Positions 57,379 through 62,540 of a stretch of DNA of 64,000 bases are shown here, piece by piece; within the stretch, counting starts at the first letter, position 1; each line of letters opens with the position of its first letter. Location: NCBI RefSeq assembly GCF_013137895.1, contig NZ_CP053538.1, positions 1,611,501 through 1,675,500 of the forward strand. Reading direction: 5' to 3'. The notes under the pieces are model-generated. The model searched no databases. It was not told where the DNA came from and saw only the letters and a list, made by a program, of their open reading frames with translations. The position numbers and the translations under genes are program-made. This stretch comes from Hymenobacter taeanensis. Its GTDB lineage: Bacteria > Bacteroidota > Bacteroidia > Cytophagales > Hymenobacteraceae.

Positions 57379-57702
57379 GGCAGGAATAATTGGGAAGAAA
57401 GAGCCAGCTGCCGCAGTGCGCAGGGTGGGTAACTGGCTTCTGACAGGTACTATTTCAAAACCGTGCCAAGTTTTTTACACCCATCCTTAAAACCGGCTCT
57501 AACTGGCCTAGAACACGCAATGGGCCTTGCTTTGACAACTTAGTATTGTGCAGGTGTTGAAACACTTTTTGCCTCACTCAACACAAATTTCAGTGAGTTT
57601 TACCCTGCTTTAGCAAACGTTTGTTAGCTGTTATTTTAAATTTTTAATTTGGAATTACCAGCAACGCGTCCCACCTTGCCCCTATCAAAGCACTTGATAC
57701 TC
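57379..57702. other. Intergenic region upstream of the phenylalanine/tyrosine attenuators
   Basis: About 320 bases; promoter(s) of the aromatic operon should lie here. An AT-rich part at 57590-57660 contains TTTG (57618-57621 approx.) followed about 20 bases on by TTTTTAATTTGG, loosely like the Bacteroidota -33/-7 pair. No coding frame was found. Confidence 0.35.
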
Positions 57703-57762
57703 ATGCTTCAGCCGACCAGCCGCTTTTATTTTAACTACTATTTCTACTACGCCAACGCGTAG
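57703..57762 (+). CDS. Phe/Tyr leader peptide 1
   Basis: A 19-residue leader frame reading MLQPTSRFYFNYYFYYANA. Eight of the nine residues 8-16 are aromatic (three Phe, five Tyr). It is followed by a strong terminator 41 bases later and stands before the aromatic operon. The last Tyr codons overlap a hairpin ACTACGC/GCGTAGT (57746-57763), the usual pause hairpin position. A ribosome short of charged tRNA-Tyr or tRNA-Phe would stall on it. Translation is not demonstrated; the codon content and arrangement are the evidence. Confidence 0.85.
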   Translation: MLQPTSRFYFNYYFYYANA

Positions 57763-57837
57763 TCGAGCGGCCCCTCTGTAGCTTTCCCCACCGAAATTCT
57801 CCAGCGCCTCTCGACAACCTCGGGAGGCGCTTTTTTT
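57746..57837 (+). promoter_or_regulatory. First phenylalanine/tyrosine attenuator
   Basis: Segment 1:2 is ACTACGC/GCGTAGT (57746-57763, loop CAAC). GTCGAG (57762-57767) can instead pair with CTCGAC (57810-57815) inside the terminator arm, an antiterminator. The terminator is a 12-bp stem (57803-57814 with 57820-57831, one G-T wobble, loop CAACC) followed by seven T residues. When the ribosome stalls on the leader, GTCGAG is freed and should weaken the terminator. Pairings were found by eye and need folding. Confidence 0.7.
57803..57837 (+). terminator. Terminator 1 of the aromatic operon attenuator
   Basis: AGCGCCTC (57803-57810) pairs with GAGGCGCT (57824-57831), extended by TCGA/TCGG pairs, then TTTTTTT. 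It sits between leader peptide 1 and leader peptide 2. Confidence 0.85.
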
Positions 57838-57856
57838 ACGCTCACACAATACCCAC

Positions 57857-57937
57857 ATGGCCGCTCAACACTTCTTTTATTACGGCTACTATTACTTCTT
57901 TTTTACAAAGAAGCGGGGCCCGATTTGCCGAAGCTGA
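57857..57937 (+). CDS. Phe/Tyr leader peptide 2
   Basis: A 26-residue leader frame beginning MAAQHFFYYGYYYFFFTKK. Ten of the eleven residues 6-16 are aromatic (five Phe, five Tyr), ending with three Phe codons. It lies 20 bases after terminator 1 and before terminator 2, so it makes the second of two tandem attenuators. Codons 19-22 contain GCGGGGCC (57913-57920), which is the antiterminator segment. A ribosome finishing the peptide would cover it; one stalled on the aromatic run would leave it free. Confidence 0.85.
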   Translation: MAAQHFFYYGYYYFFFTKKRGPICRS

Positions 57938-57991
57938 CTTAGAGCAGCCACCACAGCAAACCCAAGGCCCCGCACTCCGGAGGCCTTTTTT
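57913..57991 (+). promoter_or_regulatory. Second phenylalanine/tyrosine attenuator
   Basis: GCGGGGCC (57913-57920) is the exact complement of GGCCCCGC (57966-57973), which forms the left arm of the terminator. This 8-bp pairing would block terminator 2. Terminator 2 is AAGGCC/GGCCTT (57964-57969 with 57982-57987), extended by CCG/CGG with a bulged A, followed by a T run. pheA starts 24 bases later. Confidence 0.75.
57964..57991 (+). terminator. Terminator 2 of the aromatic operon attenuator
   Basis: AAGGCC with GGCCTT plus an inner CCG/CGG helix, followed by TTTTTT (57986-57991). It is positioned between leader peptide 2 and the pheA start. Confidence 0.8.
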
Positions 57992-58014
57992 ATTGCCATT
58001 TCATCACCAGTATC

Positions 58015-58845
58015 ATGCTCCCCACTGTTGCCATCCAGGGCTTTGACGGTAGTTTCCACCAGATAGCCGCCCGCCACTACTTCGGCCCCGAAACGCTGAC
58101 GGCGCCCTGCGCCACGTTTAGCGAGGTGGTGCGCCAGGTAGCCAGCGGCAGCACGGGAGCCGGCCTAATGGCCATTGAGAATTCCATTGCCGGCAGCATT
58201 CTGCCCAACTACACACTGTTGCGCAAGTCGGGGCTGCGGGTGATGGGTGAGGTGTACCTGCGCATCCGGCAGCACCTGATGGCACTGCCGGGTCAGCAGC
58301 TTTCCGACATCCGGGAGGTGCACTCCCACCCCATGGCCCTGCTGCAATGCGCTGACTTTCTAAACCAGTACCACCATTGGCAACTGGTGGAGTCAGAAGA
58401 CACGGCCCTGAGCGCTCAGCGCGTGCGGGAGCAGGGCCGGCCCGGCGTAGCGGCCGTAGCGGGCCGGCTGGCCGCCGAGCTGTTCGGCCTGGAAATAGTA
58501 GCCGAGGACATTCACGCCGAAAAAAAGAACTACACCCGCTTTCTGGTAGTGGCCCGCCCCGAAAACGCGCTGGAAGTGGAGCAGCCCAATAAGGCCTCGC
58601 TCTATTTCCACACCAACCACACTCAGGGCAGCCTGGCGCGGGTGCTGGTCCGGATTGCTGATCTGGGCATTAACCTCTCCAAGCTGCAGTCGTGTCCCAA
58701 GCCGGGCAGCACCTGGCACTACTACTTCCACGCCGACCTGGAGTTTGATCAGCCGGAGCAACTCCAGGCCGCCCTCCGCGACATTGCCCCCGTAACCGAT
58801 GGCCTGGAGGTGCTGGGCGTGTACCATAAAGGCACTACACATTAA
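58015..58845 (+). CDS. pheA: Prephenate dehydratase
   Basis: A 276-residue enzyme converting prephenate to phenylpyruvate in phenylalanine synthesis. The catalytic domain opens VAIQGFDGSFHQIAARHYF, has the AIENSIAGSI active-site region and the conserved threonine in KKNYTRFLVV. The C-terminal ACT domain (about 190-270: GSLARVLVRIADLGINLSKLQSCP) normally binds phenylalanine. The usual E-S-R-P of the regulatory site reads Q-S-C-P here. No chorismate mutase domain is fused; that activity is in the DAHP synthase protein. It is the first structural gene after two tandem attenuators. Confidence 0.95.
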   Translation: MLPTVAIQGFDGSFHQIAARHYFGPETLTAPCATFSEVVRQVASGSTGAGLMAIENSIAGSILPNYTLLRKSGLRVMGEVYLRIRQHLMALPGQQLSDIREVHSHPMALLQCADFLNQYHHWQLVESEDTALSAQRVREQGRPGVAAVAGRLAAELFGLEIVAEDIHAEKKNYTRFLVVARPENALEVEQPNKASLYFHTNHTQGSLARVLVRIADLGINLSKLQSCPKPGSTWHYYFHADLEFDQPEQLQAALRDIAPVTDGLEVLGVYHKGTTH

Positions 58846-58869
58846 TTCAGTCACCAGATTCAAAACAAC

Positions 58870-58970
58870 GTCATGCTGAGCGCAGCCGAAGCATCTCTAC
58901 CGCTGGCTAACCAACTGGCCTAAGCCTCTACAACCAAGCGGTAGAGATACTTCGACAAGCTCAGCATGAC
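58870..58970. repeat. REP-like inverted repeat (CATGCTGAGC family)
   Basis: Left arm CGTCATGCTGAGCGCAGCC with GAAGCATCTCTACCGC, and right arm GCGGTAGAGATACTTCG with CAAGCTCAGCATGAC. It lies between pheA and the aminotransferase gene. Confidence 0.85.
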
Positions 58971-59005
58971 AATTACTAATTAACAGTACCCTTCCTATCC
59001 GCACG

Positions 59006-59036
59006 CGAGATCCTTCGCTTCTCTCAGGATGACGTT
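59006..59036. repeat. Half-copy of a REP-like arm
   Basis: GAGATCCTTCGCTTCTCTCAGGATGACG is a single arm of the CATCCTGAGC family, without its partner. A second, shorter half-arm lies at about 60303-60330. Confidence 0.5.
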
Positions 59037-59058
59037 CAGATAAAAAAATCAGCACCTC

Positions 59059-60246
59059 ATGCAAGTTTCCGTAGCCAGCCGCCTTCAGCACACTCAAGAG
59101 TACTACTTCTCGCAGAAGCTGCGCGAGATTGATGGCCTGAATAAAGCCGGCAAGCAGATTATCAACCTAGGCATTGGCTCGCCCGATATGCCGCCCCACC
59201 CCAACGTGGTGGCGGCCCTTACCCGCGCGGCCGAGCTACCGAACACGCACGCTTACCAGAGCTACAAGGGAGTGCCGGCGCTGCGCCAGGCTATGGCGGG
59301 CTGGTACCAGCGGCAGTACGGTGTGGCGCTGGACCCGGAGGCGGAGATTCTGCCGCTGCTGGGCTCCAAGGAAGGTATCATTCATGTGAGCATGACGTTT
59401 CTGGAAGCCGGCGACGAGGTGCTGATTCCGAACCCTGGCTACCCAGCCTACCGGGCCGCCGCGCACCTGAGCGGCGCCACCCCCCTCGACTACGACCTGA
59501 CCGCCGAAAACAACTGGCTGCCCGACCTGGAGGCGCTAGGCCAGCGCGACCTGAGCCGCGTAAAGCTGATGTGGGTGAACTACCCCCATATGCCCACCGG
59601 CACCGCCGCCGATGCCGCGTTCTTCACCAAGCTGGTGGCCTTTGCTACGGCGCATAACATTCTGCTGGTGCACGATAACCCGTACAGCTTCATCCTCAAC
59701 ACGGAGCAGCCCCAGAGCCTGCTGGCGGTGCCGGGCGCACGGGAAGTGGTGCTGGAGCTGAACTCCCTGAGCAAGTCGCACAACATGGCGGGCTGGCGCG
59801 TGGGCCTGCTGGCGGGCCGCGCCGATCTGCTGCAGGAAGTGCTACGCTTCAAGAGCAACCTCGACTCGGGCATGTTCCTGCCGGTGCAGCTGGCCGCCGT
59901 GGAGGCCCTGAACCTCGATGAAACCTGGTACCAGGAGCTAAACGCCCACTACCGTGCCCGCCGCGAGCTGGTGTTTGAGCTGCTCGATACCATTGGCTGT
60001 AGCTACGACCGCAACCAGGTAGGCCTGTTTGTATGGGCCCCCATTCCGGCGGGCTACGCCGACGGGTACGCCCTCAGCGACGAGCTGCTCTACAACGCCA
60101 GCGTGTTTATCACGCCGGGCGGCATCTTCGGCAGCAACGGCAACAACTTCATCCGGGTGAGTTTGTGCCAGACCAAAGAGGTGCTGCAGGCGGCGCTGGG
60201 CCGCATCAAGCAGGCCCAGCAGCTCAGCGCTTCCGCAGCAGATTGA
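59059..60246 (+). CDS. PLP-dependent aminotransferase (aromatic or LL-DAP type)
   Basis: A 395-residue fold-type I aminotransferase. The PLP-lysine is in LELNSLSKSHNMAGWRVGLLAG (about residues 234-255), and NYPHMPTGTAAD, PNPGYPAYRAA, HDNPYSFI and SLCQTKEVL are also recognised. The N-terminal EYYFSQKLREIDGLNKAGKQIINLGIGSPDMPPHPNVV matches the group that includes LL-diaminopimelate and aromatic aminotransferases. Its place between pheA and tyrA makes it the likely transaminase for phenylpyruvate and hydroxyphenylpyruvate. This is inference from context. Confidence 0.9.
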   Translation: MQVSVASRLQHTQEYYFSQKLREIDGLNKAGKQIINLGIGSPDMPPHPNVVAALTRAAELPNTHAYQSYKGVPALRQAMAGWYQRQYGVALDPEAEILPLLGSKEGIIHVSMTFLEAGDEVLIPNPGYPAYRAAAHLSGATPLDYDLTAENNWLPDLEALGQRDLSRVKLMWVNYPHMPTGTAADAAFFTKLVAFATAHNILLVHDNPYSFILNTEQPQSLLAVPGAREVVLELNSLSKSHNMAGWRVGLLAGRADLLQEVLRFKSNLDSGMFLPVQLAAVEALNLDETWYQELNAHYRARRELVFELLDTIGCSYDRNQVGLFVWAPIPAGYADGYALSDELLYNASVFITPGGIFGSNGNNFIRVSLCQTKEVLQAALGRIKQAQQLSASAAD

Positions 60247-60369
60247 GTGGAACGAAGGGCCTGCTCCCGCTGCAACGGTGTCGTCGGGGTGCATGCCTGA
60301 CATCCGCAGGTCCTTCGCTCCGCTCAGACACTAACAAACTCCTTATTTCACCATCTCACCACTTCCCCG

Positions 60370-61215
60370 ATGGTAGTTACGATAATCGGAATTGGCCTGA
60401 TTGGCGGCTCGCTCGCCCTTAGTCTCAAGGAGACTGGCCTGGCGCACCACATCATTGGCGTAGATCAAAGCCCTGATAACCAAAAGCAGGCCATAGCCAT
60501 CGGCCTTGTTGATGAGATAGAAGCCGACCTGGCCGCCGCCGTGGGGCGGGCTGATCTGGTGGTAGTAGCTGTGCCCATGGATGCCATGCTCAGCGTGCTG
60601 CCCCAGGTGCTGGATGCTGCTACGGAGCGCCAGGTGGTAATTGATGTGGGCTCTACCAAAGCCACGCTGCTGGCCCACGTGAATGACCACTCCAACCGCG
60701 CCCGTTTCGTGGCCGTGCACCCCATGGCAGGCACAGAATACTCTGGCCCGTCAGCGGCCATACCTGGCTTGTTTCGCGACAAGACCCTCGTGATTTGCGA
60801 CGCCGCCCGTAGCGCCGAAGACGCCGTGGCGCGGGTAGAGGCAGTATTTGGCCGCTTGGCCATGCACCTGGTGTACATGGATGCCACCGCTCACGACCTG
60901 CACACGGCGTACATTTCGCACATCTCGCATATCACTTCTTTTGCCTTGGCTCTCACAGTTTTAGAGAAAGAGAAAGAAGAACAGCAGATATTTGCACTGG
61001 CAAGCGGTGGTTTTGAGTCGACGGTGCGCCTGGCCAAAAGCTCGCCCGATATGTGGGTGCCCATCTTCCGCCAAAACCGCGTGAACGTGCTGGATGTGCT
61101 GGACGAGCACATTCACCAGCTTCAACACCTGCGCGAGCTGCTGAATCAGGAAGACTACCCGGCGGTTTACCAACAAATACAGCAAGCCAACCTGATCAAA
61201 AAGATTCTGAAATAA
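60370..61215 (+). CDS. tyrA: Prephenate dehydrogenase
   Basis: A 281-residue enzyme oxidising prephenate to 4-hydroxyphenylpyruvate on the tyrosine branch. The NAD-binding loop reads VTIIGIGLIGGSLALSLKE (residues 3-21), followed by DVGSTKATLLAHV, FVAVHPMAGTEYSGPSAA and HDLHTAYISHISHITSFALAL. The active-site histidines and the H-P-M-A-G-x-E motif are intact. There is no ACT domain. It probably acts with the preceding aminotransferase gene in one operon. Confidence 0.94.
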   Translation: MVVTIIGIGLIGGSLALSLKETGLAHHIIGVDQSPDNQKQAIAIGLVDEIEADLAAAVGRADLVVVAVPMDAMLSVLPQVLDAATERQVVIDVGSTKATLLAHVNDHSNRARFVAVHPMAGTEYSGPSAAIPGLFRDKTLVICDAARSAEDAVARVEAVFGRLAMHLVYMDATAHDLHTAYISHISHITSFALALTVLEKEKEEQQIFALASGGFESTVRLAKSSPDMWVPIFRQNRVNVLDVLDEHIHQLQHLRELLNQEDYPAVYQQIQQANLIKKILK

Positions 61216-61237
61216 CAAAGCTAGAGCTACAAACTAG

Positions 61238-61363
61238 CTCCCCTCCTCAGATGAGGAGGGGCTGAGGGTGGTTGACTGGCCTAGAACAGTTTTTAGAACT
61301 AGAGCTAGTGGACGTTCAACGATTTTCAACCACCCCCAACCCCTCCTCATCTGAGGAGGGGAG
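61238..61363. repeat. Intergenic inverted repeat with CTCCCCTCCTCAGATGAGGAGGGG
   Basis: Left arm (61238-61275) and right arm (61326-61363) are complementary over about 38 bases. Each arm contains a self-palindromic GAGGAGGGG element (CCCTCCTCAGATGAGGAGGG). The core holds a CTAGAACAG stretch with the GGCCTAG word. It lies between tyrA and the DAHP synthase gene. Confidence 0.8.
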
Positions 61364-61436
61364 TCTAGACTAAAAATCTAGCACTCTTAAGCCTCATCTT
61401 AGGCTACCTCCCAACTGCAAAAAACAACCTCATATA

Positions 61437-62540
61437 ATGGAACAGCTCATCACCTCCCCTGCCGACCAGGCCGAACACAAGACCTTCCTGGCGAAGAAGC
61501 CCCTCATCATTTCTGGCCCCTGCTCGGCCGAGACGGAAGAGCAGCTCATTGAAACCTGCACCCGCCTGGCCGCCACCGGCAAAGTGGATATGCTGCGCGC
61601 CGGTATCTGGAAGCCCCGCACCAAGCCCGGCCTGTTTGAGGGCGTGGGCACCAAGGGCCTACCCTGGCTGCAGAAAGCCAAGCAGCTGACTGGCCTACCC
61701 ACCACCGTGGAAGTAGCCACGCCCAAGCACGTAGAAGATGCCCTGGCCTTTGAGGTAGATGTGCTCTGGATTGGGGCCCGCACCACCGTAAACCCCTTCT
61801 CGGTGCAGGCCGTGGCCGATGCCCTGCGCAACACCGACGTGCCTGTGTTCATCAAGAACCCCGTGCACCCCGACCTGGAGCTGTGGATGGGCGCCGTGGA
61901 GCGCCTGGCCAAAGCCGGCGTGAAGAACATCGGTCTGATTCACCGGGGCTTTGCGAGCTACGGCAACACCGAGTTCCGCAACGCCCCTATGTGGCACCTG
62001 CCCATCGAGATGAAGCGCCGCCTGCCCGAAATGCCCATCATCTGCGACCCGAGCCACATCTGCGGTAACCGCACGGGCCTGGCGGGCATCGCGCAAAAGT
62101 CGATTGACCTGGACTTTGATGGTCTGATGCTGGAATCACACATCGACCCCGATAACGCCTGGAGCGACGCCAAGCAGCAGGTAACGCCCGAGCGCCTCGC
62201 CGAGCTGCTCGACGGCCTGATCTGGCGCCACGAAACCACCGACCAGCAGGAATTCATCACGGTGCTCACCAAGCTGCGCGAGCAGATCAACCAGCTCGAC
62301 GACGAGATTCTGCACCTGCTGGGCCGCCGCATGCAGGTAGCCGAGAACATTGGCACCTACAAAAAAGAGAACGACATCACCATTCTGCAGACCAACCGCT
62401 GGAACGAGATTCTGGAGCGTGGGGTACAGAAAGGCAACCAGCTGGGCCTCACCAAAGACTTCATTCTGAAGTATTTCGACGCCGTTCACCTGGAGTCTAT
62501 TAACCGCCAGAACCGCATTATGAACCGCGAGAATCTGTAG
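61437..62540 (+). CDS. Bifunctional DAHP synthase / chorismate mutase
   Basis: A 367-residue fusion for the first shikimate step and the branch to prephenate. The N-terminal DAHP synthase (type I-beta, KDPG-like) shows ISGPCSAETEEQLIETC, MLRAGIWKPRTKPGLFEG, VWIGARTTVNPFSV, NPVHPDLELWMGAVER and ICDPSHICGNR. From about residue 285 a type II chorismate mutase follows: LTKLREQINQLDDEILHLLGRRMQVAENIGTYKKEN. It completes the four-gene Phe/Tyr set (pheA, aminotransferase, tyrA, this gene). It lies about 220 bases after tyrA, behind a REP-like repeat, so it may have a separate promoter. Confidence 0.95.
   Translation: MEQLITSPADQAEHKTFLAKKPLIISGPCSAETEEQLIETCTRLAATGKVDMLRAGIWKPRTKPGLFEGVGTKGLPWLQKAKQLTGLPTTVEVATPKHVEDALAFEVDVLWIGARTTVNPFSVQAVADALRNTDVPVFIKNPVHPDLELWMGAVERLAKAGVKNIGLIHRGFASYGNTEFRNAPMWHLPIEMKRRLPEMPIICDPSHICGNRTGLAGIAQKSIDLDFDGLMLESHIDPDNAWSDAKQQVTPERLAELLDGLIWRHETTDQQEFITVLTKLREQINQLDDEILHLLGRRMQVAENIGTYKKENDITILQTNRWNEILERGVQKGNQLGLTKDFILKYFDAVHLESINRQNRIMNRENL

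Follow-up and report, generated by a model that had tools for sequence, protein, structure and literature searches.

Before the operon for phenylalanine and tyrosine synthesis of Hymenobacter taeanensis, ribosome-mediated attenuation of transcription very probably takes place twice in succession, each of the two attenuators sensing the charging of tRNA-Phe and tRNA-Tyr, an arrangement for which the evidence is computational and which would combine a low leak with a steeper response to shortage. A preliminary description of this DNA had proposed tandem leader-peptide attenuators at this place, and the conservation of leaders, terminators, antiterminators and spacing among related genomes bears that proposal out.

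The window analysed here is a stretch of 64,000 nucleotides, in which the promoter, the leaders with their RNA elements and the genes of the operon lie on the forward strand. The operon comprises pheA, encoding prephenate dehydratase (58015-58845; PDT domain above the cut-off, ACT part below it), a gene for a class I/II aminotransferase (59059-60246, assigned by domain/profile match), tyrA, encoding prephenate dehydrogenase (60370-61215; PRK08507 at 360.3 bits against a cut-off of 295), and a gene for DAHP synthase with a C-terminal chorismate mutase (61437-62540; DAHP_synth_1 and CM_2 both above cut-off), and these profile matches agree with the four genes named in the preliminary description. 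The gap between pheA and the aminotransferase gene (58870-58970) contains a palindromic repeat, GTCATGCTGAGC...GCTCAGCATGAC, which we take to resemble dispersed REP-like elements.

Leader frames, terminators and antiterminators upstream of pheA

Leader peptide 1, MLQPTSRFYFNYYFYYANA (57703-57762), and leader peptide 2, MAAQHFFYYGYYYFFFTKKRGPICRS (57857-57937), contain cores in which eight of nine and ten of 11 residues, respectively, are aromatic, the coordinates, peptides and aromatic counts being exactly those first reported. On either strand of the window, nothing else among frames of 10-40 codons that start with ATG reaches 5/9 Phe, Tyr or Trp residues. For comparison, 60 same-genus or Hymenobacter-named pheA loci were collected, and four duplicates (L054, L058, L059, L060) were dropped to give 56 distinct loci, the window's own included; the set does not include same-genus matches in G024 and G036, nor the fragments present in G004 and G011, and six or more genus members that gave no PheA match (G007, G016, G027, G031, G263, G299) stand outside the count. 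At a threshold of five aromatics in nine, a score that 3 of the 82 tandem leaders do not exceed, leader 1 has a counterpart in 56/56 of these loci and leader 2 in 41/56; both leaders with their own terminators are present in 41 loci, only leader 1 in 15, and neither in none. Some pheA start codons are misassigned (e.g. L026, L052), which affects distances to pheA and not the leaders. The PheA of H. fodinae is 98% identical to that of the window, and the tandem, with its leaders, terminators and antiterminators, is kept down to 56% PheA identity. An absence of conserved aromatic runs or terminators in relatives, which the preliminary description had set against its own reading, did not occur.

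Of the 852 codons that make up the aromatic cores in the 41 tandem loci, 680 are TTY or TAY, two are TGG and 170 are others, with not a single TTA or TTG, a codon use that speaks for translation of the leaders. Phe and Tyr exchange at most columns of both leaders, the totals over these loci being 164 Tyr and 151 Phe in leader 1 and 215 Phe and 170 Tyr in leader 2, and the conserved property of the leader columns, as read from the alignments, is "Phe or Tyr". The last aromatic codon of leader 1 encodes Tyr in 40 of the 41 loci; in leader 2 the three final aromatics read FFY or FFF in 34 of them. Conservation extends to the class of aromatic codon and to antiterminators and terminators, whereas N-terminal residues and spacers vary. 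In neither leader was the true frame favoured by a plain test of synonymous substitution, which gave 0.18 against 0.41 in the shifted frame for leader 1 and 0.24 against 0.32 for leader 2; we attribute this failure to single out the frame to Phe/Tyr swaps, which are second-position changes. Across the same genome the leader codon pattern has eight matches as compared to seven for the reversed pattern; two of these eight are the leaders themselves, and the five others inspected sit in open frames of 55-203 codons. A comparison with Rfam, covering T-box and other leader and riboswitch families, gave no gathering-score match in the window and nothing beyond chance level at E up to 1, a negative that weighs little because the genome's own Trp leader, located before a chorismate-binding gene, is also unmatched.

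Each leader is followed by a predicted intrinsic terminator at the place originally described. Terminator 1 (57803-57837) consists of a stem at 57803-57831 and a run of seven T to 57837, folds with -21.5 kcal/mol and is listed by the terminator scan, while terminator 2 (57964-57991) combines a hairpin at 57964-57987 with a T-run to 57991 at -12.7 kcal/mol, and is absent from the forward-strand listing of that scan, probably owing to its bulge. According to sequence prediction, a hairpin with an adjoining T-run occurs after each leader in 41/41 tandem loci and after the sole leader in 15/15 distinct single-leader Hymenobacter loci. The leader-terminator segments also fold better than dinucleotide shuffles, with z values of -5.17 for gate 1 and -2.46 for gate 2.

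The pairing segments noted in the preliminary description are both there. Antiterminator 1 has the 5' strand GTCGAG (57762-57767), situated at and just after the stop codon of leader 1 and predicted to pair with CTCGAC (57810-57815) in the 5' arm and loop of terminator 1; antiterminator 2 has the 5' strand GCGGGGCC (57913-57920), situated within leader 2 over Lys-Arg-Gly-Pro codons, with the partner GGCCCCGC (57966-57973). At gate 1 the complementarity is kept through differing sequences (GTCGAG/CTCGAC, AGAACGAG/CTCGTTCT, GTCGGG/CCCGAC and GCAGCGAGGC/GCCTCCTGC). When partners were swapped among the 41 loci, own duplexes had lower energies than swapped ones, both at gate 1 (-16.35 vs -12.65 kcal/mol) and at gate 2 (-15.55 vs -14.26 kcal/mol), with a permutation p of 0.0002 in each case; the own partner beat divergent partners in 37/41 loci at gate 1 and 38/41 at gate 2, and was the better one in 14/15 single-leader loci (p 0.0036), all of these statistics ignoring kinship among the loci. 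Measured against shuffled strands, the median z of the own duplex was -2.41 at gate 1 and just -1.33 at gate 2.

Cells changed on both sides of the gate 1 pairing number 18, as against 8.4 after shuffling, a value reached by 0/500 shuffles. Three of five column-wise measures at this gate were reached by 0/500 shuffles, two were at chance (254 and 407 of 500), and a control slid by -3 gave a covariation score of 0.170, higher than the 0.142 of the true register. The gate 1 count is an underestimate, since MAFFT misplaces the antiterminator in the AGAACGAG type, and the swap test was added. At gate 2 the pair counts are modest, with 13, 39, 19, 135 and 6 of 500 shuffles reaching the five measures, and controls slid by -2 and +1 contain more both-side changes than the true register. 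These comparisons point to a mutually exclusive, covarying antiterminator at gate 1 and, at gate 2, to a candidate antiterminator recognized by its pairing, with modest covariation.

An RNAalifold consensus of the 41 sequences further predicts two protector hairpins, one at 57747-57762, in which CUACGC (last Tyr-Ala codons) pairs with GCGUAG (Ala-stop), and one at 57895-57913, in which CUUCUU (end of a Tyr codon and Phe codons) pairs with AAGAAG (Lys codons) and which shows pair changes. On the 3' side of leader 1 lies the motif TGTAGC (57777-57782), each base of which is at least 90% conserved in the 41 loci and which, in the window, is complementary to mid-leader codons.

A probable promoter was located at 57648-57678 by a pattern scan (TTTG at 57648-57651, 20 nt, CACCTTG at 57672-57678), the pattern being based on what we take to be the Bacteroidota -33/-7 consensus. 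In 44 of the 56 loci, ACCTTG or a close variant precedes leader 1 by no more than 70 nt. In the window a second match to the pattern starts at 57620, and the scan found no match between leader 1 and pheA. Across loci leader 2 starts 6-28 nt past terminator 1, which leaves little room for a promoter of its own, and the absence of a promoter match between the two leaders suggests that they share one transcript.

Occurrence in other Bacteroidota and history of the operon

The loci named here are the best 80 of a longer match list. Among these best matches, 73 (L061-L133) were scored at a threshold of six aromatics in nine, and 71 of them have a leader, 12 having two. The two-leader loci among the matches listed (L062-L065, L067, L068, L076, L079, L080, L082, L083, L101; all upstream of pheA) are exactly the Chitinophaga-titled ones, all of which have two leaders, several being near-identical, and a terminator follows leader 1 in 11 of the 12 and leader 2 in 11. 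A terminator was found in 54 of the 59 one-leader loci among the same matches; at a threshold of 5/9, L070 and L100 would gain a second, weak frame. In 12/12 of the Chitinophaga loci listed there is one Trp near the end of leader 1 and none in leader 2, which suggests that in Chitinophaga gate 1 also reads Trp.

Among 40 other Cytophagales loci, scored for leader frames only, a lone ATG leader reaching 6/9 was seen in 15 and a pair in none. A search of the phylum provided 26 loci, 24 of them with a leader and a single one, L194, with two, which adds a third family (f27) to those with a tandem; relative to the PheA match its leaders lie at -351 and -198, each followed by a terminator, and the automatic antiterminator assigned to its leader 2 is weak (-8.1 kcal/mol). 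Four other f27 loci (L204, L245, L246, L247) possess one leader each, and the L194 tandem may therefore be independent. A leader occurs in one of 20 loci labelled only as members of the same phylum, and in each of 20 further loci one leader is followed by a terminator, no second frame being followed by one, the antiterminator of L246 being weak. As judged from these counts, pheA is commonly preceded by one Phe/Tyr leader in several Bacteroidota families, and the tandem is restricted.

In a PheA tree of 84 selected rows (midpoint root, bootstrap not fully settled), Hymenobacter falls into one clade with Chitinophagaceae (100/99), apart from six other members of its own family. The aminotransferase is 66-71% identical to that of the window in seven Chitinophaga loci vs 52-57% in the six own-family members, and the corresponding values for the DAHP synthase with chorismate mutase are 69-76% vs 50-52%. 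Together, the PheA tree and these identities indicate that the operon (58015-62540) probably moved horizontally, with its leader. No tyrA is present within the 6 kb examined in the six own-family members; since tyrA occupies that place in several other families, its absence marks the own family and proves no transfer. On the tree, which includes eight of the 15 one-leader Hymenobacter loci, these loci need at least two separate changes.

Proposed operation of the gates and alternative readings

We infer translation of the leaders, ribosome stalling, termination, kinetic competition and multiplication of read-through as parts of the following scheme. The transcript would begin upstream of leader 1, and RNA polymerase would meet two ribosome-operated gates before pheA. 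When charged tRNA-Phe and tRNA-Tyr are plentiful, the ribosome would reach the stop codon and cover the antiterminator strand, and the terminator would form. When either tRNA is short, the ribosome would stall in the aromatic run and the antiterminator strand, which begins about 10-12 nt past the start of the last aromatic codon, would stay free to pair with the terminator 5' arm ahead of the synthesis of the 3' arm, and RNA polymerase would continue. Because both gates must be passed, their read-through probabilities would multiply, ensuring a low leak in times of plenty and a steeper response to shortage. Two features of the attenuator class, a short ORF rich in codons for the product amino acids and a predicted intrinsic terminator between that ORF and the first gene, are found here.

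The frames, terminators, antiterminators, geometry and conservation of the two gates have computational support, and the occurrence of similar gates in other Bacteroidota also speaks for the scheme. In modelled states, for which the ribosome edge was assumed to lie 13 nt past the start of the A-site codon, a stall is predicted to free the antiterminator and a ribosome on the stop codon to cover it. Counted from the first base of the last aromatic codon, the antiterminator begins at a median distance of 12 nt (7-18) for gate 1, of 10 nt (3-13) for gate 2 and of 15 nt (8-16) for the single-leader loci. For all stalls tried, each of the window's antiterminators is predicted to form with P=1.00 as long as the terminator 3' arm has yet to be synthesized, and folding prediction with a ribosome on the stop codon shows the antiterminator blocked and the terminator formed. 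Over the 41 loci, sequestration of the terminator 5' arm amounts to 0.83 at gate 1 and 0.75 at gate 2 for a stall at the penultimate aromatic codon, to 0.83 and 0.62, respectively, for a stall at the last one, and to 0.20 (41 loci) and 0.21 (40 loci) with the ribosome at the stop codon, shuffled upstream RNA giving 0.51 and 0.55. The own upstream RNA beats 95% of shuffles in 28/41 loci at gate 1, in just 13/41 at gate 2 and in 8/15 single-leader loci. At equilibrium and full length, with a stall at the penultimate codon, the terminator wins in 32/41 loci at gate 1, 29/41 at gate 2 and 15/15 single-leader loci, gate 1 of the window being terminator-dominant at equilibrium as well; with the terminator favoured even under stall, the switch must therefore act kinetically. 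A division into a kinetic gate 1 and a thermodynamic gate 2, as suggested by the window, is not general across the 41 loci.

According to the preliminary description, the gates might respond to different shortages in a two-step logic, leader 1 ending in Tyr codons and leader 2 in Phe codons. What stands of this is the bias of the last codons, Tyr at the end of leader 1 and FFY or FFF at that of leader 2, by which a Tyr gate 1 followed by a Phe gate 2 is only weakly favoured; set against it, both leaders mix Phe and Tyr codons in their totals and exchange them at most columns, and the hairpins also engage the final Tyr codon TAC and the Phe codons within CTTCTT. A two-input logic, in which gate 1 would respond mainly to Tyr (and to Trp in Chitinophaga) and gate 2 mainly to Phe, the operon being fully on only when both are short, is possible but rather doubtful; the Trp that all 12 Chitinophaga loci listed have in leader 1 and lack in leader 2 speaks for it, as does the experimentally shown two-signal tandem of Salmonella mgtCBR (PMC3641672, in excerpt), but in the window a stall at any of the aromatic codons tried is predicted to leave the antiterminator free. 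Equally doubtful is the extension that the pair forms a serial AND integrator, with a Tyr-weighted gate 1 (Trp in Chitinophaga) and a Phe-weighted gate 2, which moved between families with the operon. If true, an amino-acid operon would here be under a multi-input tandem attenuator, of which the literature searched gave no example.

That only one gate regulates, with its partner serving as a constitutive filter or being left over, appears unlikely. The 15/56 Hymenobacter loci without leader 2 show that one gate can suffice, and the other examined Bacteroidota with a leader nearly always have one, but 41 distinct loci have retained the full set of both leaders with their terminators and antiterminators, down to the lowest PheA identity given above. 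The terminated short RNAs or peptides might also act in trans, besides or instead of cis attenuation, for which S. meliloti peTrpL is a reported precedent (PMC7298713) and to which an RNA of about 150 nt, released at terminator 1 if transcription started near 57685, would lend itself; conservation concerns aromatic codons as a class together with antiterminators and terminators, with variable N-terminal residues and spacers, which argues against such an action, and we consider it quite improbable. Control of pheA translation by the hairpins is highly improbable, even though the end of terminator 2 is at a median of 29 nt and a minimum of 15 nt from pheA (the largest values including the misassigned starts of L026 and L052), in view of the T-run that adjoins the hairpin at both gates in 41/41 loci and of the distance of gate 1, which in the window ends about 180 nt before pheA.

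Relation to known attenuators

The leader-peptide attenuators of enterobacterial pheA, trp and his operons have one gate each. As in the tandem proposed here, they combine a short frame of regulatory codons, an antiterminator and an intrinsic terminator before a biosynthetic operon, whereas two gates in series, each mixing Phe and Tyr codons, and the lack of an Rfam match set the Hymenobacter arrangement apart. Leaders of the trp and his type have been modelled (PMC1183508, in the part cited). For Bacteroidota, excerpts of a study of Flavobacterium psychrophilum report strong clues to leader-peptide attenuation upstream of amino-acid operons and a structured element before pheA that is kept in other Flavobacteriaceae (PMC9723704); this is, as here, a Bacteroidota leader element before pheA, and the same excerpts do not mention two gates. 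Another partial source lists the cis-regulatory motif Bacteroid-trp (RF01692), also a Bacteroidota leader element for which that part of the text mentions no two gates, together with a pheA motif in Actinobacteria (PMC2864571), and leader-peptide-like short frames are described in Bacteroides (PMC7366714, in the portion cited).

Double switches are known in other contexts. As presented in excerpts of PMC3641672, the Salmonella mgtCBR leader contains two short frames, mgtM and mgtP, each with its own switch, and it differs from the present case by its ATP and proline signals, by the lack of a biosynthetic operon and by hairpins unlike intrinsic terminators; its authors regard a single attenuator as normal for nutrient biosynthesis. 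Two leader ORFs, each with its own predicted switch, are likewise present here on what would be one transcript. The mefA/msrD double-lock also has two attenuators, said to prevent basal expression, but it relies on antibiotic-induced stalling and its second attenuator controls msrD alone (PMC10314930, as excerpted). In the rimP leader of several Gammaproteobacteria there is, as here, a second terminator in tandem and a possible antiterminator, and the part of the paper cited differs in describing no short leader frame (PMC2965389). No tandem attenuator on an amino-acid operon was found among the matches listed from the literature searched, which was mostly without subscription papers; to this extent the view that the tandem is undescribed, as first put forward, holds, with the qualification that leader-peptide attenuation itself has already been reported in Bacteroidota (PMC9723704, in excerpt).

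Attenuation of this kind requires that a ribosome follow RNA polymerase closely. The Phe/Tyr leaders that precede pheA in several Bacteroidota families, doubled in most of the loci examined of one genus, make transcription-translation coupling in Bacteroidota directly testable. The tandem further lends itself to the question of whether gates in series sharpen an attenuator, and the one-gate and two-gate species within Hymenobacter offer a ready comparison.

Leader-like frames also accompany other biosynthetic genes of the same genome. A His-rich frame, for which no terminator was found, lies before hisG (L174, 1034-1115), and neither this stretch nor those of L176 and L178 showed a further leader of like kind that has a terminator of its own. 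A WWW frame with a terminator is located before the chorismate-binding gene (L176, 709-836), which is probably trpE, and a Leu/Ile/Val-rich frame with a terminator lies about 1.1 kb upstream of ilvD (L178, 128-243).
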